From contig NZ_FUYR01000006.1 in assembly GCF_900168015.1 (NCBI RefSeq), forward strand, positions 1-64,000: a DNA stretch of 64,000 nucleotides. The letters are read 5' to 3'. Under the pieces are notes generated by a model, which worked only from the letters and a program-made list of their open reading frames with translations, had not been told where the DNA came from and made no database searches. Both the position numbers and the translations under genes were made by a program. Positions 10,834 to 23,119 of this stretch are shown here, one piece after another. The number at the start of each line of letters is the position of its first letter. Position 1 is the first letter of the stretch. This stretch comes from Daejeonella lutea (GTDB lineage Bacteria; Bacteroidota; Bacteroidia; Sphingobacteriales; Sphingobacteriaceae).

Positions 10834-13251
10834 TCAATACAAGCCCGGAAACCTCTCCGGATTACTGTCATTCATCATTTCATAAACGATCTCGATAATA
10901 TCGTCCAGGGAAGGCTTAGTAAAATAGTCGCCGTCCGAGCCGTAGGGCGGCCGATGAGGTTTGGCGGTTAGGGTACGAGGCTTGCCGTCGAGAAACTGAT
11001 AGCCGTTTTGAACCTCTAAAATCTGCTGCATGATAAATGCTGATGAACCACCAGGCACATCTTCACCAACAACCAGAAGTTTATTGGTTTTTCTTAGCGA
11101 CTGGACACAGCGGTGTTCAAGATCAAAAGGCAGGAAGGTTTGTATGTCTACAATTTCGGTTGAGATTCCCATCCCCTCAAGCTCCTCAGCAGCTTCCTGG
11201 GCAATACGAAGGGTAGATCCATAAGAAACCAGGGTTAGATCGGTACCTTCTCTAAGAATTTCAACTTTACCTAAAGGGACCGTAAATTCACCTGGGTTTG
11301 AGGGAAGTTCTTCTTTCAGCCTGTAGCCATTCAAACACTCGATAACTAATGCCGGCTCATCGCCTCTTAGAAGCGTGTTATACATACCAGCAGCCTGAGT
11401 CATATTTCGTGGCACGCATACATGCACGCCGCGTAAGGAATTTATTATAACTCCCATTGGTGAACCGGAATGCCAGATCCCTTCCAGACGATGTCCCCTG
11501 GTACGAACGATCAACGGAGCTTTTTGTCTGCCTTTGGTACGGTAGCTTAAGGTCGCAAGGTCGTCGCTGAGTATATTTAGTGCATATAGAACATAATCCA
11601 AATATTGTATCTCGGCAATTGGACGCAGTCCACGCATGGCAAGACCTATCCCCTGGCCTATGATCGTCATTTCCCGGATTCCTGTATCGGAAATACGCAG
11701 CTTACCAAACTTGGCCTGCAAGCCTGCAAAACCCTGGTTAACATCTCCAATAGCTCCCACATCTTCGCCGAAAGCAACAACACGCTCGTCACGGGTGAAG
11801 TTCGCCTCGAAGCAGGCATTTAGAATCTCCCGCCCATCAACTTTCCGAGCCTCTGCGGCATACTCTGCTTTAACTACCGGAACGTTGAAAGGTGAATCAG
11901 CTGAACCGGTAAACAGCTTAGAGTTGTAGCGGTCATAATTACTGTCGTGCTGTTCTTTATACCAGTTTAATAAATTGTCTTTCGCTTCAGATTGAACACT
12001 GTTCAATTTCCTGGCGGCTAAGCGAACCAGGCTGATCACATCCTTACGGGATGGCTCCGTACTAGCAGCCAGGGCTCTGGCATCGGCAATTAAACTATCA
12101 TTGCCAGTCTTTTCAATTAAGCTAGCTGCAAGGTCGAGTTCCTTCCGCATCTCAGCATTGAAGTCGGCCCATGCCTGCTTCTGGCAATTTCTGATATAAG
12201 TCTTGGCTGTATTTTCCAGCTCAAGCAATTCTTCATCAGATGCAACAGCAGATTCAATCATCCACTTACGCATCTGAAGCATGCAATCGTATTCATTTTC
12301 CCAGTCGATCCGGGACTTGTCTTTATATCTTTCGTGTGATCCGGAAGTCGAGTGGCCTTGCGGCTGCGTCATCTCGGTAACATGGATCATAACAGGTATA
12401 TGCTTCTCGCGGCAGATCTTAATCGCTCGCTCATAAGTTTCACACAATCCGGGGTAATCCCAGCCTCTAACTTTGAAGATCTCATACCCCTCGCCCACTT
12501 CATCTCGCTGAAATCCTTTGAGAATCTCGGATATGTCCTGTTTTGTAGTCTGATATTCCGCAGGAACGGAAATTCCATAGGCATCATCCCAAATTGAGAT
12601 AGCCATTGGAACTTGTAGAACACCTGCAGCATTTATAGCTTCAAAAAATATCCCTTCAGATGTCGAAGCATTTCCTATTGTACCGAAAGCAACTTCATTG
12701 CCGGCAACTGAAAATTTCTTTAAGTCTTTTAGAGCAGGGTTATTCCGGAACATTTTGGAAGCAAGAGCCAGGCCCACAAGGCGCCCCATCTGACCACCAG
12801 TTGGCGAAATATCTGCAGAAGAGTTCTTTTGCGCGGTAAGGTCCATCCAATCCCCATCCTCATCAAGCGTTCGGGTAGCGAAATGACAGTTCATCTGACG
12901 CCCGCCGGAAGCAGGATCAGCATCAATATCGGTGTTTGCGTATAGCTGAGCGAAGAATTCAGGCATGGTAAGCATTCCTGCAGCAAGCATAAAGGTCTGA
13001 TCACGGTAATAGCCTGAACGCCAGTCGCCGGCCTTGAATGCCTTTGCCATTGCTAGTTGAGCAACTTCTTTACCGTCGCCAAATATTCCAAACTTTGCTT
13101 TGCCCGTAAGAACTTCTTTGCGACCTAAAAGACTAGCCTGACGACTTTCATAGGCAATCTTATAATCATTAATTATAATGCCCCTGAAATCTTCAAAGCT
13201 TAGTTCTTCCTGATCCTGCAAATTGTTCTCTACCACCTGGGTTCCTTTCAT
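10834..13251 (-). CDS. 2-oxoacid dehydrogenase E1, alpha-beta fusion (branched-chain type)
   Basis: An 805-residue thiamine pyrophosphate enzyme. The alpha part (about residues 20-400) has GRKEVLTGKAKFGIFGDGKE, YYRDQTFMLAAG, GNASTSEGIFFEA and the HSTSGSHERY loop. The beta part (about 475-800) has VVAFGEDVGAIGDVNQGFAGLQAKFG, LRPIAEIQYLDY, RTRGHRLEGIWHSGSPMG and a C-terminal transketolase domain with VVGEDVPGGSSAFI. Such fusions in Bacteroidetes are annotated as 3-methyl-2-oxobutanoate or pyruvate dehydrogenase E1; the alpha GxA segment favours branched-chain substrates. E2 and E3 are not nearby. It makes the branched acyl-CoA primers for iso fatty acids, which may matter for the lipid operon at 17-23 kb (inference). 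Confidence 0.9.
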   Translation of the reverse strand: MKGTQVVENNLQDQEELSFEDFRGIIINDYKIAYESRQASLLGRKEVLTGKAKFGIFGDGKEVAQLAMAKAFKAGDWRSGYYRDQTFMLAAGMLTMPEFFAQLYANTDIDADPASGGRQMNCHFATRTLDEDGDWMDLTAQKNSSADISPTGGQMGRLVGLALASKMFRNNPALKDLKKFSVAGNEVAFGTIGNASTSEGIFFEAINAAGVLQVPMAISIWDDAYGISVPAEYQTTKQDISEILKGFQRDEVGEGYEIFKVRGWDYPGLCETYERAIKICREKHIPVMIHVTEMTQPQGHSTSGSHERYKDKSRIDWENEYDCMLQMRKWMIESAVASDEELLELENTAKTYIRNCQKQAWADFNAEMRKELDLAASLIEKTGNDSLIADARALAASTEPSRKDVISLVRLAARKLNSVQSEAKDNLLNWYKEQHDSNYDRYNSKLFTGSADSPFNVPVVKAEYAAEARKVDGREILNACFEANFTRDERVVAFGEDVGAIGDVNQGFAGLQAKFGKLRISDTGIREMTIIGQGIGLAMRGLRPIAEIQYLDYVLYALNILSDDLATLSYRTKGRQKAPLIVRTRGHRLEGIWHSGSPMGVIINSLRGVHVCVPRNMTQAAGMYNTLLRGDEPALVIECLNGYRLKEELPSNPGEFTVPLGKVEILREGTDLTLVSYGSTLRIAQEAAEELEGMGISTEIVDIQTFLPFDLEHRCVQSLRKTNKLLVVGEDVPGGSSAFIMQQILEVQNGYQFLDGKPRTLTAKPHRPPYGSDGDYFTKPSLDDIIEIVYEMMNDSNPERFPGLY

Positions 13252-13417
13252 AGCACAGCTTGTGGGTCAAAAATAACAAAAGACAGCAGGAAAAGATAAT
13301 CGGTTTACAAAATATTAGTTGGATTTTTAACTAGCCTGCCAAATTTAAAATTATACCACATGCTAAACTAGTGATATTCCGCTTGTTGGAATGATTATTG
13401 AAATATGTATATTAGTT

Positions 13418-13425
13418 TATATTTG
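13418..13425 (+). promoter_or_regulatory. -7 promoter box of the DUF1573 gene
   Basis: TATATTTG fits TAnnTTTG; a TTG at 13398-13400 lies 17 bases upstream. The start codon is at 13443. Confidence 0.45.
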
Positions 13426-13442
13426 GTAAACTAAATCATGAT

Positions 13443-13838
13443 ATGAGACATTTTATGAAATTATGCGCGGTGATCATAGCCTTTATTGGTTTCACTGCCA
13501 TGCAGGATGGTACTAAGGCTGATTTTAAGTTTGAGAAAGAAACTCACGATTTCGGCAAAATTGCTCAGGGTAAACCTGTAAGCGTTGACTTCGTCTTCAC
13601 TAATGTGGGCGAAGAACCATTGATCATCTCCAATGTGGAATCAACCTGTGGATGTACAGTTCCTAAATATACCACCAATCCGGTGCAGAAAGGCGGACAA
13701 GGGACTATCACCGTCACTTTTAACGCAGCAGCTGTACAACCCGGATTCACTAAAGCGGTAACTATCAAATCGAATGCACGTACGCCGGTTAAAGTCCTTT
13801 ATATTAAAGGAGAAGTGGTAGCATCGAGCAGCAGGTAA
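13443..13838 (+). CDS. DUF1573 exported protein
   Basis: A 131-residue protein with an N-terminal hydrophobic signal (about 3-22), so it is probably periplasmic. The rest is an immunoglobulin-like beta domain of the DUF1573 family: FEKETHDFGKIAQG, VDFVFTNVGEEPLIISNVESTCGCTVPKY (the CGC signature, about 65-71) and ITVTFNAAAVQPGFTKAVTIKSNA. The family is abundant in Bacteroidetes and has no known catalytic role. It has its own promoter box and a terminator right after it (13858-13888), so it is monocistronic. Confidence 0.88.
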   Translation: MRHFMKLCAVIIAFIGFTAMQDGTKADFKFEKETHDFGKIAQGKPVSVDFVFTNVGEEPLIISNVESTCGCTVPKYTTNPVQKGGQGTITVTFNAAAVQPGFTKAVTIKSNARTPVKVLYIKGEVVASSSR

Positions 13839-15160: not shown

Positions 15161-15525
15161 GGGCCCGACCGGAATTGACAGGATGGAGATAGGTATGTAA
15201 GCATGCAGCGCGTTGTGAGACTAGCGCTTAAATCTGAACTCTCAAACCACAATTGGCGAAAATAACTACGCCTTAGCTGCCTAATTTAGAATTAGCATAG
15301 CTTTTGTCCCGCTAGGTTCCGCTTTGTAGCTTAGCACCAGGGGCATCGAACAACAAAGCTGGCCAGGGTTTAATGGTGTGATAACCCGGCAAGATAAGAC
15401 ACCTACGGAAGAAGGTACAGGCGAGCGGTTGGCCTTCCCCTTCCCGACAATAAAATAACTGCTAAGCACGTAGAAAGCATAATTTGTCCCATGTTTGGAC
15501 GAGAGTTCGAATCTCTCCGGGTCCA
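15161..15525 (+). ncRNA. ssrA: tmRNA
   Basis: The ends pair as a tRNA-like acceptor stem: GGGCCCG (15161-15167) with CGGGTCC (15518-15524), discriminator A at 15525. CCA is not encoded. The T arm reads GAGAGTTCGAATCTCTC. The tag frame resumes near GGC (15255) and gives GENNYALAA followed by TAA (15282-15284), a tag typical of Bacteroidetes. The 5' part GGAATTGACAGGATGG is also characteristic. The product rescues stalled ribosomes with SmpB. A terminator follows at 15570-15599. Confidence 0.96.
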
Positions 15526-15569
15526 CTTGATGATTAAAAAGCAGGCAGCAGCCTGAGCAAAAGCAAAAG

Positions 15570-15812: not shown

Positions 15813-15924
15813 AAGTCCAAAACCCTCCTCCTCCTACCTACCATAAATTTTGGTATTTTTATTGCTTTTAAGCGACCATCCTGAACAAAAGGATATTTTC
15901 TCTATACAGCATACCAGTTTCCTA

Positions 15925-17406
15925 ATGATCAAAAAACTACTCCTGATAACCCTCCTGTCTTTCGGCCTCAGTCTCCCTTCTAAAGCAAACTTCGACTTCA
16001 ACAGCAATTGCATAAAAGCCTATCAGGCCATATTTGACCTGCGCTTAAATGACGCAAAAGCTCTGATCCAAAACGAGAAGAAACAGAACCCTAATAATGG
16101 AATAACTATACTTCTTGATAATTATATCGACTATTTCACCCTGCTTGCTTCAGAAAACAAATCAGACTATGAGCGCTTGAAAAACAATAAGGCGACGCGC
16201 TTAAGTGCATTAGAAAAGCAGGATAAAAATTCGCCGTACTATCTTTTTGCCCAGGCTGAAGTTAATTTGCAATGGGGTATGCTAAAAAGCAGATTTCAGG
16301 ACTACTTCTCCTCAGGGATGGACATTAAAAAGGCTGATAACTTACTAACGGCCAATATTGCCAAGCACCCCTCGTTCTTGCCGAACAAAAAGAGCGCCGG
16401 TCTTATCGATGTAATTTTTGGATCAATACCTTCAAATATGAAAGGGATTTTTTCAACTCTTGGGATTAAAGGAAATGCAGCTGTTGGAATACGTTCTTTA
16501 GAATCGCTGGTGTCTAGCCTTCCAAGGTCTTCATATAAGTTTTACACCGACGAGGTAGTGTTCTTTCTCTGCTATATTGAGACAGACCTGGTGCATAACA
16601 AAGCGAATTACAGCAAGATCATGGGCTACACAAACACAATGGACGATTCCAGTTTGCTGAAGTCTTATCTCCAGGGTTATGTATCTGCACGGAGCGCGAG
16701 AAACGACAACGCGATTGAATATCTTCAAAAAAGACCCAAAGGGAGCGAATATCTCAACTTCCCTGTGCTGAACTACCACCTGGGAAATGCTAAATTAAAT
16801 CGCGGTGACGCTGACGCGAATATCTACTTAATCAACTTTTTGAAGGAGTACAAAGGGATCAACTACGTCAAAGATGCCTACCTGAAGCTTGCTTATTATT
16901 TCTATCTGCGCGGCGATAACGCGAAGTATAATACCTTTTTGAAAATGGTAAAAACTCATGGAAGTCTCTACGATGAAAAAGATAAGCAGGCTTTGAAAGA
17001 GGCAAATGATGCTGCGCCGGATATGGACCTTTTAAAGGCACGTCTTTATTTCGATGGCGGATATTATCCAAAAGCTTTAGCTGAATTAACAGGAAAGGAC
17101 GCTGGAGATTTCAAGTTGAAGCGTGACCAGATTGAGTTATATTACAGGCTAGGTCGTATCTACGATGAATCGGGCCGCGATTCAGACGCTGTCGTCAGCT
17201 ACCAAAAAGCTATTAATTCAGGAAAGTTGAGCTCTTACTATTATGCTGCAAATGCGGCCCTGAGTATTGGTAGCATATACGAGAAGAAAGGTGATAAAGC
17301 TAAAGCAGCTTCTTACTATAAACAGGCAATTGCCATGAAGGACCATGAATACGAAAATAGTATCGAATCGAAAGCAAAAGATGGATTGAAAAGAACGGGA
17401 TATTGA
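15925..17406 (+). CDS. Exported TPR-repeat protein (DUF3808-like architecture)
   Basis: A 493-residue protein. ATG 15925 gives a clean signal peptide (MIKKLLLITLLSFGLSLPSKA); a TTG start at 15850 would bury it. The body is helical with tetratricopeptide-like units, clearest at the C-terminus (IELYYRLGRIYDESGRDSDAVVSYQKAINSG and AALSIGSIYEKKGDKAKAASYYKQAIAM, about 400-475). It is probably periplasmic or surface-anchored and acts as a protein-interaction scaffold. The partner is unknown; the neighbouring lipid operon is convergent. No specific family recognised with certainty. Confidence 0.8.
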   Translation: MIKKLLLITLLSFGLSLPSKANFDFNSNCIKAYQAIFDLRLNDAKALIQNEKKQNPNNGITILLDNYIDYFTLLASENKSDYERLKNNKATRLSALEKQDKNSPYYLFAQAEVNLQWGMLKSRFQDYFSSGMDIKKADNLLTANIAKHPSFLPNKKSAGLIDVIFGSIPSNMKGIFSTLGIKGNAAVGIRSLESLVSSLPRSSYKFYTDEVVFFLCYIETDLVHNKANYSKIMGYTNTMDDSSLLKSYLQGYVSARSARNDNAIEYLQKRPKGSEYLNFPVLNYHLGNAKLNRGDADANIYLINFLKEYKGINYVKDAYLKLAYYFYLRGDNAKYNTFLKMVKTHGSLYDEKDKQALKEANDAAPDMDLLKARLYFDGGYYPKALAELTGKDAGDFKLKRDQIELYYRLGRIYDESGRDSDAVVSYQKAINSGKLSSYYYAANAALSIGSIYEKKGDKAKAASYYKQAIAMKDHEYENSIESKAKDGLKRTGY

Positions 17407-17485: not shown

Positions 17486-18130
17486 CTACTCGTCCGTAAA
17501 CCGCACTTGCTTTTGAATAGCCTCTTTATGATGCGCATTTATCTTCTTTCCCAGTTCCTCAAAATCAAAATCGTGATTGGTTCCGCAATCGAGCATATGG
17601 AAATAGGTTGATGGCTTTAAGCTCTCAAAATATTCTATGATAGTGCTACTCCAGAGCAGCTGACAATCATTCCGGATCTGAGGAACAATATGACTTATCC
17701 CATCTTTCATTAGGATTGTGCGGATATGATGCGACTCCAGGTTTCCCTGTGGAAACATTAGAAGCAAATTACCAGGGGTATTTAAGATTTCGGCTGCATA
17801 CTCAAGACTCTCATTTACCGATGCTGTTCCCGGAGAAATGGAAAAACATCCAAAATACTTGAGCCACGGGTTCATCTGCATCTGTTTCTTTAGAACCATA
17901 ATGTAAAAGCCGTTCAAACCACGCGTCTTATGGATCGCATTGAACGCAAGATAAGCGGCAAGAAAACCATCCCAGAAACTAAAATGATTGGACATTAATA
18001 TATAAGAATGGCCAGGTTTGATATTAACGTGATTAATGATCAATTTATTGAACCGGCGCCGCAAAAACCAGTTCAAGAATTTGCCCGCAGTCTTAATTAA
18101 CAGGTGGTTTTGCCTTGCTTTAATAATCAT
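17486..18130 (-). CDS. PlsC-like acyltransferase, last gene of the FAS-II-like operon
   Basis: A 214-residue lysophospholipid-type acyltransferase. The catalytic HX4D box is NHFSFWDG (about 48-55) and the second block is MFPQGNLES (about 126-134, in place of FPEGTRS). Hydrophobic stretches suggest membrane association. The start overlaps the end of the hydrolase gene by 11 bases, so it is coupled to it. In this operon it probably moves the acyl chain from the dedicated carrier protein or CoA to an acceptor (lipid, amino acid or sugar). The acceptor is unknown. The gene is shorter than typical PlsC (about 240). Confidence 0.82.
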   Translation of the reverse strand: MIIKARQNHLLIKTAGKFLNWFLRRRFNKLIINHVNIKPGHSYILMSNHFSFWDGFLAAYLAFNAIHKTRGLNGFYIMVLKKQMQMNPWLKYFGCFSISPGTASVNESLEYAAEILNTPGNLLLMFPQGNLESHHIRTILMKDGISHIVPQIRNDCQLLWSSTIIEYFESLKPSTYFHMLDCGTNHDFDFEELGKKINAHHKEAIQKQVRFTDE

Positions 18131-18947
18131 TTAGAAGAACCGATAATTCATTTGCAAAGTTACGATTGATCATGTCGTGATTTTCATTGATTACCAGTTG
18201 GCGGGCAAAATTGATCTTAGGAATAACGGCCTGTCCAATTTTTGGGGGATAATTCCGGTCTCGCTCCCCAAATATGAACACGCTTTTAATCTCATGCTTG
18301 TTCAGCATACTGACAAACTTTACGGCATCAAGCTTCAAAAACCGCATATAACTTGCGCAAGCGTAAAAACTAAATCGCTGGTCGGGGCTCGAGACTTCTT
18401 TAAACAGGATATCATAGCCTTTCTGATCTATGATCCTTGTTCTTCGCAACACTGATAGCATACGCGTCATGCCATTATTACTTAATGCCATCCGTTCAAG
18501 CACTTTGTTGCCGAGCGAGTTCGAACTCAGGAACGTAAGTAACCTACCCGGCTTCAGGCTTGAAGGCGCAGCAATGAAAAGCTCCTGTATCTGCTCCGCC
18601 ATTTCCTCTATCAAGCTGGTTGCATAGTGCGATCCCATGGAATATGCTATAATTGAAAAATTATCAACTTGAGTGGAACTACAAAAGTCCCTGAATAATT
18701 CTGCAAGCTGCTGTTTCGTGATACCTTTTTTTACGGCTGCTACACTCTGATCTTTGAGTAATGTACCCTTATGGAAAAAGAGATCGAATCCGTAAAACGT
18801 GTACTTATCACCCAATGTTTCTTCAAGCACCCGGAACTGTCGCCCGTGCATACCATAGCCGTGAAAGCAGAACATGTTCTTTGGCCCGGCACCGAACTTA
18901 TAGTAGTGCATAACAACCAGGTCATTCGAGAAATAATGATCAGTCAT
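18120..18947 (-). CDS. Alpha/beta hydrolase (thioesterase-like) of the FAS-II-like operon
   Basis: A 275-residue alpha/beta-hydrolase fold protein. Seen: oxyanion segment FCFHGYGMHG, nucleophile elbow IAYSMGSHY (Ser with Ala in place of the first Gly), the acid in FIFGERDRNYPP and the His in NENHDMIN. I chose ATG 18947 (MTDHYFSN), which overlaps the AcpS stop by 8 bases like the other junctions; the upstream start at 18986 would overlap far more. In the operon it may release or edit acyl chains as a type II thioesterase. It has no signal peptide, so it acts in the cytoplasm. Confidence 0.8.
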   Translation of the reverse strand: MTDHYFSNDLVVMHYYKFGAGPKNMFCFHGYGMHGRQFRVLEETLGDKYTFYGFDLFFHKGTLLKDQSVAAVKKGITKQQLAELFRDFCSSTQVDNFSIIAYSMGSHYATSLIEEMAEQIQELFIAAPSSLKPGRLLTFLSSNSLGNKVLERMALSNNGMTRMLSVLRRTRIIDQKGYDILFKEVSSPDQRFSFYACASYMRFLKLDAVKFVSMLNKHEIKSVFIFGERDRNYPPKIGQAVIPKINFARQLVINENHDMINRNFANELSVLLNDY

Positions 18948-19341
18948 ACGTTTTCTTAACGATTGCGATGGCAAAGGCATAATCACCGTCGTGGGTAATG
19001 CTTAGGCTGATATCGAGTCCGGAAAGATTAGCTGGCAAATTGATTTTTGGTATCCCGGCAATCTTTGATCTTATAACTTCAATTTTCTTAAAAGGCAAAG
19101 CTTGTTTGTAGAGTTGCTTGACCGCTTTGTATACTGCTTCTTTTGCGGCCCAGGTTGATGCATAACGCAGCATTGGCTGGTCGAAGCTATTGCAGTAATC
19201 TATTTCGCGAGAGGTAAACACTTTGGTTTTAAAAAGGTCAGTACATGACGCCACAAAATCCGGAAGATAAACTAAATCATTCCCCACTGCGAACTCATTC
19301 ACGTTCAAGTCCATTATTGCTTTGCCAATATTAATCTTCAT
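18940..19341 (-). CDS. 4'-phosphopantetheinyl transferase (AcpS-like), operon-specific
   Basis: A 133-residue AcpS-type enzyme that would load phosphopantetheine onto the carrier protein two genes upstream. The two metal- and CoA-binding motifs are present: VGNDLVYLPDF (Asp near residue 22) and STWAAKEAVYKAVK, plus the C-terminal LSITHDGDYAFAIAIV. ATG 19341 overlaps the enoyl reductase stop by 11 bases; a later Met (19314) is possible, and an earlier in-frame Met at 19374 would overlap more. A second AcpS for general fatty acid synthesis is expected elsewhere, so this one is probably dedicated to the unusual carrier protein. Confidence 0.85.
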   Translation of the reverse strand: MKINIGKAIMDLNVNEFAVGNDLVYLPDFVASCTDLFKTKVFTSREIDYCNSFDQPMLRYASTWAAKEAVYKAVKQLYKQALPFKKIEVIRSKIAGIPKINLPANLSGLDISLSITHDGDYAFAIAIVKKTYD

Positions 19342-20143
19342 CAATTCCAATCCCCATGATATTAAATCCCCCATCGACGAAATGAATGTTTCCCGTGACT
19401 TTCAGTGATAGATCCGAGAAATAATATAATGCAGTATCTGCTACATTCTCTGCCGACACATTTCCCAGCGGAGCCGTTGCCTTACCGATCTTACGAAGCT
19501 TTCTCACGCCGTTTATTCCACCAGAGGAGGTTGTCATCACCAGTCCGGCCGAAACAGCATTTACCCGAATTCCGCTCTTACGGAAGTAACTTGCGAGATA
19601 GAGCATTATATTCTCCAATGCAGCTTTGTTAATAGCCATACCAGCGTATGCCGGAAAAACCCGTTGCGACGCATTATAGGTTAGGGTAAGGACCGATGCA
19701 TTTTTCGCCATCATTGACTCAGCTGCCCTGCAAATTCTAAGCAAAGAATATGCACTTATATTAAACGAATCCATTAAATCCTCAAACGGAATGTCTATAT
19801 ATGATGGTGCTGGTTGTGTACTTCCAGGCAAGCTGTAGCACATCACATCCTGACTTCCAAAAGCCACACCATGCAGGATATAATCTATCGAGCCAAGCCC
19901 ATTATAAATCTTTTCCAGAAAATTTTTAATAGCAGACTCATCGCGTACATCCACTTCCATAGCGTATTCTGCACTCATACCGTTCGACTCCAGTAGAAAT
20001 AGTACTTCGTCGCGAGTTTCGGCCACGTAATTCAGTACGACTTTGCAACCCGATTGATGCAACTTCAATGCTACGTGAAATGCTATCGAGCTTTCATTTC
20101 TTACCCCGAAAACTACTGCTATCTTATCCTGATTATTGATCAT
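19331..20143 (-). CDS. FabI-like enoyl-ACP reductase of the FAS-II-like operon
   Basis: A 270-residue short-chain dehydrogenase of the FabI type. It keeps the FabI cofactor pattern (VVFGVRNESSIAFHVA in place of the GxxxGxG Rossmann loop) and the catalytic Tyr156, Tyr166 and Lys173 in the Y-x9-Y-x6-K arrangement (TLTYNASQ...PAYAGMAINK). The C-terminus GNIHFVDGGFNIMG is family-typical. It would reduce the 2-enoyl carrier-bound intermediate with NAD(P)H. It differs strongly from housekeeping FabI in the substrate-loop region (SSGGINGVRKLRKIGKATAPLG). It overlaps the ketosynthase stop by 4 bases (ATGA). Confidence 0.85.
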   Translation of the reverse strand: MINNQDKIAVVFGVRNESSIAFHVALKLHQSGCKVVLNYVAETRDEVLFLLESNGMSAEYAMEVDVRDESAIKNFLEKIYNGLGSIDYILHGVAFGSQDVMCYSLPGSTQPAPSYIDIPFEDLMDSFNISAYSLLRICRAAESMMAKNASVLTLTYNASQRVFPAYAGMAINKAALENIMLYLASYFRKSGIRVNAVSAGLVMTTSSGGINGVRKLRKIGKATAPLGNVSAENVADTALYYFSDLSLKVTGNIHFVDGGFNIMGIGIDED

Positions 20144-21492
20144 GAAACATCTTTTGATACCAACATTGCGCTATTTGTACCACCAAAGCCATAGTTTAGA
20201 CAAGCGACGGTATTTACTTCCTTTTGAAAGCTCTGTTGTGGTAGCAAATGCCTGTAGCTATTCATAGGTTCTACCGGGCCGTTCCAGTCAGGTGATTTTT
20301 GAATGTTTTCCAACTCAGCATTGAGGTCATTTGCATTTAGACAAGGTAAAACCATCTGCTTTTGCAGCATCAATATGGCTGTTATAAATTCAACTGCTCC
20401 GGCTGCACCCAGCATGTGGCCAAACTGCGACTTAGGTGCAGATATATGATAGCCACTGTCGCCCAACACATCTACTACACTAAATAGCTCGATCGGATCT
20501 CCGGCAGGTGTAGACGTTCCATGTACCTTGACCACATCAGGCCTGATGCCTGAATCGCCCAGTAATCCTTTCCAAAGTCTTCGCTGACCTCCAAAAGAAG
20601 GATAGAACATATCACCGTCTCCATCAGAGTTGTTAAAATAATTATCAATCACTCCAAGAATCTTAGCTCCCCGGTTTTTTGCCATTTCATATTCTTCAAG
20701 GCATACGAGCCCTGCTCCGAATGAACATACAAAGCCATTGCGATTGACATCAAATGGCCGAGAACTTTCTTCGGGTGCAAAACCGCGGCTTAGTACCGCC
20801 ATAGAATCAAATCCAAAAAGGGATTCAATTGAAGTAGTTTCAACGCCCCCGGTAATGACCCGGTCCTGCGCGCCAAATTTAATCAAACGATAGGCATGAC
20901 CAATGTTGCCCAACCCGGTCGCACAAGCAGAAACTATTGTCTCCACTACGCCCCTGTTCTTAATTAAGCATGAGACGTTAGCTGCTTCACGGTAAACCAT
21001 CCCGCGATCAACTGTATGCGCCCCCGGGGAGCGGGATTTCCCTCCTAGTTGAAAAACATGGTGCCACGCGGGGCGTAATATCGCATGTCCGCAGCCCCCT
21101 GATCCGATAATAACTCCAGTTCCTTCGGATTGGACCTCCTTTTCAGACCATCCAGCCATTTTGATCGCTTCCTTGGTGGCAAGCATTGCCCATATACTTC
21201 CCATATCGGCCGTGGCGAGGTTCGATGTTGGAATCCTGTTTAAAAGATCCACATACACTTCTGGATAATTGGCGACAATGGTGGAATAAATTGTCTCGAG
21301 ATTCATTTCGGCGTCGGTAATGTAACCCGACACCTTTGACCGGACCTGTTTATCGAAGGAAACCGCCTCGTCCCACACTCTTATAAGGCTCTTATTTGAA
21401 AAAAGCTTTTCAGAAAAGTCGTTCAGATCCGCACAAGTCGGAAACGCCCCGCCCATACCTACCACAGCAACTTTCCTTCCCTGATTTTCCAT
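20140..21492 (-). CDS. FabF-like beta-ketoacyl-ACP synthase of the FAS-II-like operon
   Basis: A 450-residue condensing enzyme with the full KAS II catalytic set: Cys190 in VSACATG, His324 in VHGTSTPAGD, Lys354 and His359 in APKSQFGHMLGAAG, and the C-terminal NYGFGGTNSA. It extends a carrier-bound chain with malonyl units. The N-terminal 120 residues are divergent from primary-metabolism FabF (for example the MNLETIYSTIVANYPEVYVDLLNRIP region), as in specialised ketosynthases. There is no chain-length-factor partner gene and no KAS III in the operon, so priming must use another enzyme. Its start directly abuts the carrier protein stop. Confidence 0.9.
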   Translation of the reverse strand: MENQGRKVAVVGMGGAFPTCADLNDFSEKLFSNKSLIRVWDEAVSFDKQVRSKVSGYITDAEMNLETIYSTIVANYPEVYVDLLNRIPTSNLATADMGSIWAMLATKEAIKMAGWSEKEVQSEGTGVIIGSGGCGHAILRPAWHHVFQLGGKSRSPGAHTVDRGMVYREAANVSCLIKNRGVVETIVSACATGLGNIGHAYRLIKFGAQDRVITGGVETTSIESLFGFDSMAVLSRGFAPEESSRPFDVNRNGFVCSFGAGLVCLEEYEMAKNRGAKILGVIDNYFNNSDGDGDMFYPSFGGQRRLWKGLLGDSGIRPDVVKVHGTSTPAGDPIELFSVVDVLGDSGYHISAPKSQFGHMLGAAGAVEFITAILMLQKQMVLPCLNANDLNAELENIQKSPDWNGPVEPMNSYRHLLPQQSFQKEVNTVACLNYGFGGTNSAMLVSKDVS

Positions 21493-21753
21493 TTAAGCCC
21501 TTGCTTTAACTTTTATAACCAAGTCGACAATATCTTTAACCTTGGACCCCATATCATCGATATCATCATCATCAAACTCAACGTCGAATTTTTGTTCTGC
21601 TTTGGCAGCGATATTAATTAGCTCGGTTGATGGCGTGTTCAGATCCGCAATAAAATCAGTCTCTTCTGTGACATTGTTGAGCTTCTGCGGGTCGATAGTC
21701 CGTACCGTTCTTAGTATTTCTACCAGCCCATCGATTATTTCTTGTCTTTCCAT
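21493..21753 (-). CDS. Acyl carrier protein with an unusual attachment-site context
   Basis: An 86-residue acidic protein of ACP size. The phosphopantetheine serine is probably Ser42 in DLNTPSTELINI, where ordinary ACPs read G-A-D-S-L-D; the Asp before and the Leu after the serine are missing. The flanking pattern (DFIADLN, then AAKAEQKFDVEFDDDDID) keeps the ACP helix II/III layout. The altered motif suggests recognition by the operon's own AcpS and enzymes. It shares one base with the hotdog gene stop (TAATG) and is directly followed by the ketosynthase. Confidence 0.85.
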   Translation of the reverse strand: MERQEIIDGLVEILRTVRTIDPQKLNNVTEETDFIADLNTPSTELINIAAKAEQKFDVEFDDDDIDDMGSKVKDIVDLVIKVKARA

Positions 21754-22325
21754 TATTTATTTGTTGTAAAAGTTTCTTTTTTTAATGCTCTCCCGGTAAT
21801 GTCATAAAGTTCAGCCACCAGACTAAAGTCTTTGCTAATTTCGTAATTATCGAGCTTTGACTCATTAAAATCAGCAAAATAACCGTTCAGATCCAAACCA
21901 GCCGGCACTTTATATATCCTCCCATCACTTACCATTTGCCTGAACTTGTAAAACTTTATCTTTCCAACGCTGATAAAGGTTTCTCCCTCAGCCAGGTAAT
22001 TATGGAAGTTTACATTTCCAACACTTATAAAAGCCGGAACAAATCGATCTTTTAATTCCATGGGGGTGCAATTCAGTTTCTTACATTCCAGGAAGGTACC
22101 ACAAGAGACAATAGTTGCTTGTGCAAAAGCTTCGATCTGATCTACTCCGCGAAACACCCCAAAATGGTCATCAACATCTCTAGCTTTGGGAGTATAGCTT
22201 GCAATGATTCCTGCCTGCGGGGAATGCCAGTGGAAGGCATCTAAAAGACGCTTTGTTGGCCCATGCAATAGCATCTCAGAAGGCTCATACCCCACAAGAT
22301 TATTGATCTCAGAATAATCCGCCAT
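21753..22325 (-). CDS. Hotdog-fold dehydratase-like protein (FabZ/FabA-related) of the FAS-II-like operon
   Basis: A 190-residue protein with a FabZ-like core: DDHFGVFRGVDQIEAFAQA (about 52-70) aligns with the FabZ HFP...GVLxIEAxAQ signature, so the His and Glu of the active site appear kept while the HFPxxPxxPG loop is shortened. Later FKCK-type strands (VGNVNFHNYLAEGE, VGKIKFYKFRQMV) match the hotdog sheet. It has about 40 extra C-terminal residues relative to FabZ. By position it would dehydrate the 3-hydroxyacyl intermediate. I do not recognise an exact characterised family; it could also be a non-catalytic hotdog partner. Confidence 0.68.
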   Translation of the reverse strand: MADYSEINNLVGYEPSEMLLHGPTKRLLDAFHWHSPQAGIIASYTPKARDVDDHFGVFRGVDQIEAFAQATIVSCGTFLECKKLNCTPMELKDRFVPAFISVGNVNFHNYLAEGETFISVGKIKFYKFRQMVSDGRIYKVPAGLDLNGYFADFNESKLDNYEISKDFSLVAELYDITGRALKKETFTTNK

Positions 22326-23031
22326 TTATTTCAATATTACTACCGTTAATGTACGATGCTTTGTCTGACAGTAAAAAAGCTATGGTATCAGCGATCTCTT
22401 CTGCCTTGCCAAAACGCTGAGCTGGGATCATCTTCAAATATTTATCTCTTTCAGCTTGCGGAATCGCGTCTGTCATTGGGGTTTCGATAAATCCAGGTGA
22501 AATACTGAGCACCCTGATCTGATGGTCATGGTTTAAAGCAGCCGCTTCTTTGGCCAGAGATTTAGAAAATGCAATTAATCCTGCCTTGGTGGCAGCATAG
22601 ACGGATTGAAAAGCATTCCCGGTTTCGGCAACACATGAGCTGACATTGATGATGATCCCCTTATTCTTCAGTCCGAAGATCTTAAAAGCTGTTTTAGAGA
22701 TCATGATTGGAGCTTTTAAGTTAACCATCATCATCGTATCGATGTCACTTTCTGGTTGAAAAGCCAAAGGTTTATCAAATGATACCCCAGCGTTATTGAT
22801 CACCGCGAAAAGATCATCTCCGTGTTCCGATTTAAGCTTTTTACAGAATTCCTTTAGTTCATCGGGATTATTCAGATTAGCCGTTAACACGAAGTTTCCT
22901 TCCTTTAGCTCGCTGATATTTTCATCTTTTGAAGCGTGCAGGATAAGGCAAAAATCCTGATCCAGTCTGCGTGCCATCGCTAAACCCAAACCCTTACTTG
23001 CTCCGGTAATTAACACTTTTGGTTTGTTCAC
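22309..23031 (-). CDS. FabG-like 3-oxoacyl-ACP reductase, first gene of the FAS-II-like operon
   Basis: A 240-residue classical short-chain dehydrogenase: TGASKGLGLAMA (NADP loop, 8-19), INNAGVSFDKPL, the catalytic Ser in NVSSCVAE, Tyr-x3-Lys in VYAATKAG, SPGFIETPMT and the C-terminal NGSNIEINGGLF. It would reduce the 3-keto group made by the ketosynthase. It overlaps the hotdog gene by 17 bases and starts 88 bases after the exonuclease gene on the same strand. I could not find a clear promoter in that gap, so read-through from xthA is possible. Confidence 0.88.
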   Translation of the reverse strand: MNKPKVLITGASKGLGLAMARRLDQDFCLILHASKDENISELKEGNFVLTANLNNPDELKEFCKKLKSEHGDDLFAVINNAGVSFDKPLAFQPESDIDTMMMVNLKAPIMISKTAFKIFGLKNKGIIINVSSCVAETGNAFQSVYAATKAGLIAFSKSLAKEAAALNHDHQIRVLSISPGFIETPMTDAIPQAERDKYLKMIPAQRFGKAEEIADTIAFLLSDKASYINGSNIEINGGLF

Positions 23032-23119
23032 GAATGTTGATTTAGCTTGATTATTAGACGCTCAAAAATAGAAATATACTTGAACGAAATAAATTGAAAT
23101 ATACTTCGCTCTTCTAATA

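Follow-up and report, generated by a model that had tools for sequence, protein, structure and literature searches.

A compact operon of eight genes in Daejeonella lutea appears to encode a dedicated type II line for saturated acyl chains, set apart from housekeeping fatty acid synthesis (FAS) and ending in transfer of the chain to an acceptor. The operon lies on the minus strand at positions 17486-23031 of the DNA stretch analysed here (positions 1 to 64,000 of contig NZ_FUYR01000006.1, 64,000 nucleotides in total, hereafter called the window). We put the probability of this reading at roughly two in three. At the level of sequence, the gene set is present with intact active sites, the ketosynthase (KS) and the acyl carrier protein (ACP) are separate from their housekeeping counterparts, the interface between the ACP and its activating enzyme AcpS is altered, and the operon is conserved with a patchy presence. 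That primary metabolism supplies the primer and that the PlsC-like protein carries out the transfer is plausible.

Gene set of the operon

All eight open reading frames (ORFs) are open and follow each other on the minus strand, listed here in operon order.

22309..23031 (-), FabG-like 3-ketoacyl-ACP reductase, a short-chain dehydrogenase/reductase (SDR), 240 aa, GTG start; YxxxK motif present, TIGR01830 196 bits (under its cut-off of 297.75)
21753..22325 (-), FabZ-like hotdog dehydratase of a divergent subfamily, 190 aa; assigned by structure model
21493..21753 (-), ACP, 86 aa; Pro-Ser instead of Asp-Ser
20140..21492 (-), beta-ketoacyl-ACP synthase (KAS) of the KAS I/II type, 450 aa; fabF model and catalytic residues
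19331..20143 (-), FabI-like enoyl-ACP reductase, 270 aa; FabI models and Tyr/Tyr/Lys
18940..19341 (-), AcpS-type phosphopantetheinyl transferase (PPTase), 133 aa from the probable start; PF01648 46.5 bits
18120..18947 (-), alpha/beta hydrolase with Ser-Asp-His triad, 275 aa from the probable start
17486..18130 (-), PlsC-like acyltransferase, 214 aa; PF01553 30.2 bits (cut-off 23)

The longest ORFs of AcpS and the hydrolase open further upstream, at 19374 and 18986. We took 19341 and 18947 as the probable starts because conservation in relatives begins near these later positions, and with them we recovered the junctions of 17, 1, 0, 4, 11, 8 and 11 bases that a first-pass annotation of this DNA had given. 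The GC content of the operon (0.429) is near that of the window (0.420), and base composition gave no sign of a foreign origin.

Enzymes of the elongation cycle

Domain searches agreed with the gene identities assigned in the first-pass annotation, except for the hotdog protein, for which no Pfam or NCBIfam family was found at E≤0.01. An AlphaFold2 model of this 190-aa protein (pLDDT 92.4; 26 of 80 sequences used) matched FabZ dehydratases, with a best E of 1.5e-7 and a target TM of about 0.8. None of the equivalog models listed for the operon proteins reached its cut-off; the fabF model gave 234 bits with the operon KS (cut-off 493.75), and FabI models gave up to 183 bits with the enoyl reductase, under their cut-offs.

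Conservation was counted in aligned rows consisting of the window and its relatives, 62-80 rows depending on the gene. The residues earlier claimed as intact were all present in the window and invariant among the rows, both in the KS (Cys190, His324, Lys354 and His359, 80/80) and in the enoyl reductase (Tyr156, Tyr166 and Lys173, 75/75). The dehydratase-like protein has Glu65 in 80/80 rows and His54 in 79/80, the remaining row being a gap. These kept catalytic residues, together with the structure model, support condensation, ketoreduction, dehydration and enoyl reduction on the ACP as predicted steps of a type II FAS mechanism. ACP activation likewise belongs to the steps that the gene content supports. 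The eight genes include no KAS III, malonyl transacylase or chain-length factor, as had been noted before.

On whether the KS is closer to FabB or to FabF, the lines of evidence split. Solved structures named KAS I scored 155.6 bits and KAS II about 146 (one pair, presumably from E. coli), the fabF model scored slightly above a FabB-type model (227 bits), and the tree described below gave no resolution.

Separateness from housekeeping synthesis

The genome assembly (4.03 Mb, 10 contigs) holds a second KS of the FabF type at position 475185 of contig C8, which groups with 8 FabF-type rows of relatives (support 97/92). A canonical ACP motif, LGADSLDTVEL, is found within the 16-kb stretch around it (L053). 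The operon KS and ACP are thus not the sole FabF and ACP of the genome; had they been the sole housekeeping pair, this would have refuted the first-pass reading. Genome-wide, PF00109 gave two strong matches, the FabF-type and the operon KS, and two weak ones of about 26 bits. Matches of the FabD type (one), the FabA/FabZ type (one) and the KAS III type (three) were detected elsewhere in the genome.

A KS tree of 61 rows (58 of them different) included 23 of the 80 operon KS sequences, and these formed one clade (100/100) on a long stem, outside the FabF and flexirubin-type clades. The flexirubin-type references were clusters of relatives labelled by gene content, and no E. coli KS of an aryl polyene (ape) cluster was included. 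Because the program flagged long branches and only 23/80 operon KS were used, placement beyond a separate clade is unsure. The clade and the second KS and ACP support the earlier claim that the cycle is dedicated and has an ACP and an AcpS to itself.

Carrier protein and activating enzyme

ACP models matched the operon ACP under their cut-offs. At the position of the Asp that precedes the phosphopantetheine Ser in E. coli AcpP, Pro was found in 80/80 rows (the window and 79 relatives). In AcpS, the position of E. coli Arg14 (residue 15 when Met is counted) was never Arg or Lys in 76/76 rows (the window and 75 relatives), being Asp in 41, Asn in 11, Thr in 6 and other residues in the rest; the catalytic Asp, Glu and Lys were kept in 76/76. 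In the classical pair, AcpS Arg14 contacts Asp35 and Asp38 of the ACP and orients the Ser (PMC3447402). The contact of Arg14 with Asp35 would be absent from the operon pair.

We used a kin sample of 60 genomes, source genome included. In it, all 18 genomes with the operon have a short AcpS (open frame 131-181 aa) together with one or more longer PPTases (≥213 aa), and 41 of the 42 operon-free genomes have longer PPTases only; among these 42 a short one is present in G056 alone. The longer PPTase of the source genome lies at position 985422 of contig C8. Taken together, the sequences suggest that the operon ACP and AcpS are probably a matched, private carrier/activator pair.

Other small type II sets occur in relatives (L155 3400-6300, L161 5062-8539 and L162 1-4678). 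They appear to hold a KS, a hotdog protein, an SDR and/or KAS III, an ACP and a PPTase. Their ACP motifs INSANL (L155) and INSTRF (L162) again lack Asp before the Ser, and the flexirubin-type ACPs used for comparison keep DS. Loss of this Asp may accompany the possession of a private PPTase.

Distribution and gene order

In the kin sample, KS relatives at 70-84% identity were found in 17 other genomes, and the next best match fell to 157 bits and 36%. In 17/17 of the fetched loci all eight genes were present and identically ordered, and because of this agreement the grouping is more than chance.

A scan of named genomes gave 79 loci, all Bacteroidota by title, with carriers including Pedobacter, Mucilaginibacter, Daejeonella, Pseudopedobacter, Pelobium, Albibacterium, Desertivirga, Zobellia, Aquimarina and Taibaiella. 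The nearest relative by identity was Daejeonella sp. JGW-45 (84%). As the queries were peptides of the window's KS, the scan finds close relatives only. When genes were called present at E<1e-6 and an identity of 35% or more, 59 loci had the full order, 8 a six-gene core only, 4 lacked the hydrolase alone, one (L115) lacked the hydrolase and the enoyl reductase, and 7 were partial, several of them truncated by contig ends. The counts 17/17 and 59/79 are not independent, since the 17 loci are contained in the 79. By KS match the operon was present in 57/301 genomes of the family (E≤1e-60) and in 3/395 of a phylum sample (E≤1e-80); the dehydratase profile matched 4/295 genomes in a sample of the class, the source genome being one of the four.

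The patchy presence in the family could fit a resistance trait, and it was weighed whether the operon is a spare, conditional FAS, a second FabI/FabF set that contributes to ordinary membrane lipids or serves as a by-pass of FAS inhibitors. The complete elongation cycle with FabI-like and FabF/FabB-like enzymes agrees with this. However, a by-pass would need neither an own altered ACP and AcpS nor a hydrolase and an acyltransferase, and the operon KS lies far from FabF in the tree. We consider a spare FAS improbable.

Terminal enzymes and their variants

The hydrolase matched Abhydrolase_1 under the cut-off, and its matches among PDB profiles were mostly alpha/beta hydrolases (best E 3.6e-5). 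Its triad is kept, with Ser116 and Asp243 in 62/62 rows and His270 in 61/62 (one gap).

PF01553 was the sole match of the PlsC-like enzyme at E≤0.01, and a comparison of its profile with solved structures gave one match of E 0.79, which we took as chance. PlsC-type enzymes (lysophosphatidate acyltransferases) have the motif pair HX4D and FPEG, of which FPEG serves phosphate-bearing acceptors. HX4D was kept in 66/66 rows (H49, D54), and Gln128 replaced the glutamate of FPEG in 66/66, so that the motif pair is incomplete.

The eight core-only loci lack the hydrolase and PlsC and carry other genes before fabG. Upstream of fabG a GNAT is found in L120, L121, L122 and L127, with a more distant one in L114, and a different alpha/beta hydrolase in L119, L123 and L128. 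Pfam, run on four of these loci, gave FeeM under the cut-off in L121, L122 and L114 and Abhydrolase_1 over the cut-off in L119. A FabA-like gene is present in 7 of the 8 loci (confirmed by Pfam in the two tested) and absent from the window; in L120 no FabA-like ORF was found at that place, and the dehydratase of this locus has an internal stop. A conserved gene of about 565 aa also lies about 5 kb before the KS in L114, L121, L122 and L127.

A model of the GNAT (5 rows, pLDDT 84.6) best matched LasI (E 3e-9), followed by BjaI and TofI. FeeM ranked 16th, and the matches also include many plain acetyltransferases. FeeM and the acyl-homoserine lactone (AHL) synthases take acyl groups from ACP or CoA. 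The GNAT of the relatives shares their fold, with a similarity that stays under the Pfam cut-off. An enzyme with an AHL-synthase-like fold at the end of the line in relatives suggests that the line ends in acyl transfer.

The same GNAT, which replaces the hydrolase and PlsC, and its FeeM matches under the cut-off could also point to a product that diffuses, a small acylated signal or metabolite, and not to a membrane lipid. This narrower version of the dedicated line we regard as rather unlikely, as the operon in the window has PlsC and not a GNAT, and as the many plain acetyltransferases match the same fold.

In 4/79 loci a non-ribosomal peptide synthetase/polyketide synthase (NRPS/PKS) gene begins some 6 kb past the start of the KS (L055 16281-21347, where alone the domains were checked, L105, L110 and L124; three Mucilaginibacter and one Bacteroidetes by title). 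The operon might on this ground provide a megasynthase for lipopeptides or polyketides with its acyl starter. With 4/79 loci, seen over flanks of at most 10 kb, and no PKS found in the source genome, where there are two strong KS matches and one acyltransferase match, such a role is very improbable.

Side observations concern the gene content between and around the terminal enzymes. In Pedobacter planticolens (L115 8308-12435) the operon has neither the enoyl reductase nor the hydrolase, and its chain might be left unsaturated. L074 has two extra genes between AcpS and the hydrolase (12609-13571), the second of which we take to resemble a RES-domain protein, and in L117 these two genes are separated by a gap of similar size.

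Neighbouring genes and possible movement of the operon

Two further features flank the operon.

15925..17406 (+), TPR-repeat protein, convergent neighbour, 493 aa from the probable ATG; the ORF opens at 15850
23063..23070 (-), promoter-like TATTTTTG, a match to TAnnTTTG, the consensus of the Bacteroidota -7 element

The putative promoter element TATTTTTG is the single such match within the 88 bases upstream of fabG. The TPR domains of the neighbour were found by domain search, and its N-terminus, judged hydrophobic by eye, suggests that the protein is probably exported. The TPR gene adjoins the operon in 44/79 loci, 35 of them with the gene convergent on the downstream side, the arrangement of the window, and 9 with it co-directional on the upstream side, and lies within 9 kb in 3 further loci. 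In the kin sample it was present in 18/18 operon genomes and 13/42 others, and within the genus in 14/14 and 1/6 (Fisher p 2.6e-7 overall and 3.9e-4 in the genus, with kinship ignored). Its presence in those 13 operon-free genomes rules it out as a strict marker of the operon; in 10 of them it adjoins what we take to be Nif3-like and zinc-ribbon genes. It stands apart from the operon in the operon genomes G002, G004, G015 and G032 and on another contig in G017. The TPR protein is perhaps a partner of the operon.

A 358-aa KAS III beside the TPR gene in 4 of 17 TPR loci (L135, L149, L150 and L151) was considered as a further partner and rejected; it is a core gene, because 19/20 genomes of the genus have it, whether or not they carry the operon. 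A tmRNA gene with the tag GENNYALAA lies at 15161-15526 (+), flanked by an aminotransferase-like gene and the TPR gene. It is 2 kb from the operon, but as an integration site it was rejected, since a tmRNA gene was present in just one (L054) of the 55 other loci scanned.

In L080 the TPR gene and an MsrA-like gene flank the operon, and in L148, from genome G002 with its operon on another contig, these two genes are 129 bases apart. The flanks are 92-94% identical at the site; in L080 a distance of 5.7 kb separates them, and in L148 they join to within 2 bases. At this operon-free site 46 bases (L148 10515-10560) align with the end of the L080 plsC. L148 may keep a remnant of plsC, which would mean loss there and not arrival in L080. 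The KS tree mixes genera, placing Daejeonella L071 with Mucilaginibacter L062 (100/98). Because of these sites and the mixed genera, the operon seems to have been lost and regained, or to have moved as a unit.

Proposed pathway and points against it

We propose that AcpS charges the private ACP, that housekeeping FabD loads malonyl units and that housekeeping KAS III or FAS gives the primer. The KS, FabG, the FabZ-like dehydratase and the FabI-like reductase would then run full reductive rounds to a saturated acyl-ACP, a product predicted because the active sites are intact. The alpha/beta hydrolase might edit, release or transfer the chain, and the PlsC-like enzyme would esterify it to an acceptor. 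Because the PlsC motif is altered, this acceptor may be free of the phosphate that PlsC substrates usually bear. The weakest step concerns the TPR protein, which probably works together with the product at the cell envelope.

Several observations weigh against a dedicated line of this kind. The ACP position equivalent to Asp38 is Glu in 71/80 rows and Gln in 9/80 and could keep a contact with AcpS, and the altered ACP/AcpS interface shows divergence, not insulation. The motif interpretation for PlsC is tentative, and a non-phosphate acceptor is a guess. The hydrolase is missing in L070, L085, L086, L091 and L115, and the last also lacks the enoyl reductase, so these two enzymes are not always needed. 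The sets of L056, L061 and L063 are incomplete despite some contig remaining. The role of the TPR protein is drawn from neighbourhood and co-occurrence only.

Beyond the first-pass annotation, this analysis adds the changes at the ACP/AcpS interface, the core-only loci with other enzymes and the association with the TPR gene. If the proposed line exists, a small FAS would run beside the essential one without mixing, and its ACP and AcpS would be a private carrier/activator pair of natural origin, with which one could study how cells separate acyl pools. The swaps of terminal enzymes on a fixed core would show how new acylated products evolve via one changed step. As a tentative and less likely extension, the operon could be a mobile plug-in acyl factory whose orthogonal ACP/AcpS holds its chains apart from primary metabolism. 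Lineages would turn the core to new uses by exchanging its end, which could be a PlsC-like enzyme forming esters, an AHL-synthase/FeeM-like one forming amides, or a hydrolase; this would yield a new class of lipids in Bacteroidota and N-acyl compounds in other families.

Comparison with known systems

Among the titles listed by literature searches aimed at such a cluster, whose coverage left out most subscription journals, none dealt with these genes as a set, and we found no published product for an identical cluster. Each reaction of one elongation round has its like in housekeeping type II FAS (FabF/FabB, FabG, FabI, FabZ, AcpP, AcpS), from which the operon differs by the altered ACP/AcpS and the attached hydrolase and acyltransferase.

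Flexirubin/dialkylresorcinol clusters share the phylum Bacteroidota and similar types of SDR reductase, ACP and KS. The operon KS falls outside the flexirubin-type clades of relatives, and the FlxB model gave 149 bits (cut-off 340). Dialkylresorcinol clusters carry a DarB-type KAS III, and the eight operon genes contain no KAS III.

The contrast with aryl polyene clusters that had been drawn stood only in part. Both have a type II set with own ACP(s), ketoreductase, dehydratase and KS (PMC8253772). The contrast holds for the multiple KS, as ape clusters have three with a chain-length factor among them, and for the enoyl reductase, which does not appear in their listed gene table; two ACPs and transport genes are further differences (PMC8253772). 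The operon has a single ACP and a single KS besides its enoyl reductase and AcpS. The contrast does not hold for the end of the pathway, which resembles that of the operon because ape clusters pair a PlsC-like lysophospholipid acyltransferase, ApeD, with a thioesterase, ApeK (PMC8253772). Three features of the aryl polyene/flexirubin type are absent: a KS with chain-length factor (the operon has one KS gene), a KS grouping with those clades (represented here by flexirubin-type references only) and double bonds kept for want of an enoyl reductase (a FabI-like one is present).

The rhizobial cluster for very long acyl chains, acpXL-fabZXL-fabF1XL-fabF2XL-lpxXL, also places a private ACP, a dehydratase, KS and a terminal acyltransferase together and feeds one lipid (PMC5613085). 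By this likeness, and by the TPR neighbour with its probable export signal, the operon could supply an envelope lipid with acyl chains that are very long or unusual, a special case of the dedicated line that we hold possible but doubtful. Against it, the rhizobial cluster has two KS genes and LpxXL where the operon has one KS and an acyltransferase of PF01553 only, and AcpS, FabG, the enoyl reductase and the hydrolase lie outside that cluster as described (PMC5613085). Since this envelope-lipid version and the diffusible product considered above are both special cases of the dedicated line, the odds of the readings overlap. The single PF01553 match also sets the operon enzyme apart from LpxXL, a late acyltransferase of what we presume to be another family. 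The gene content would fit a private ACP, dedicated elongation and terminal transfer of the acpXL kind. While the operon is a member of neither group by these features, its closest working analogies would be the rhizobial acpXL cluster and the anchoring end of the aryl polyene clusters.

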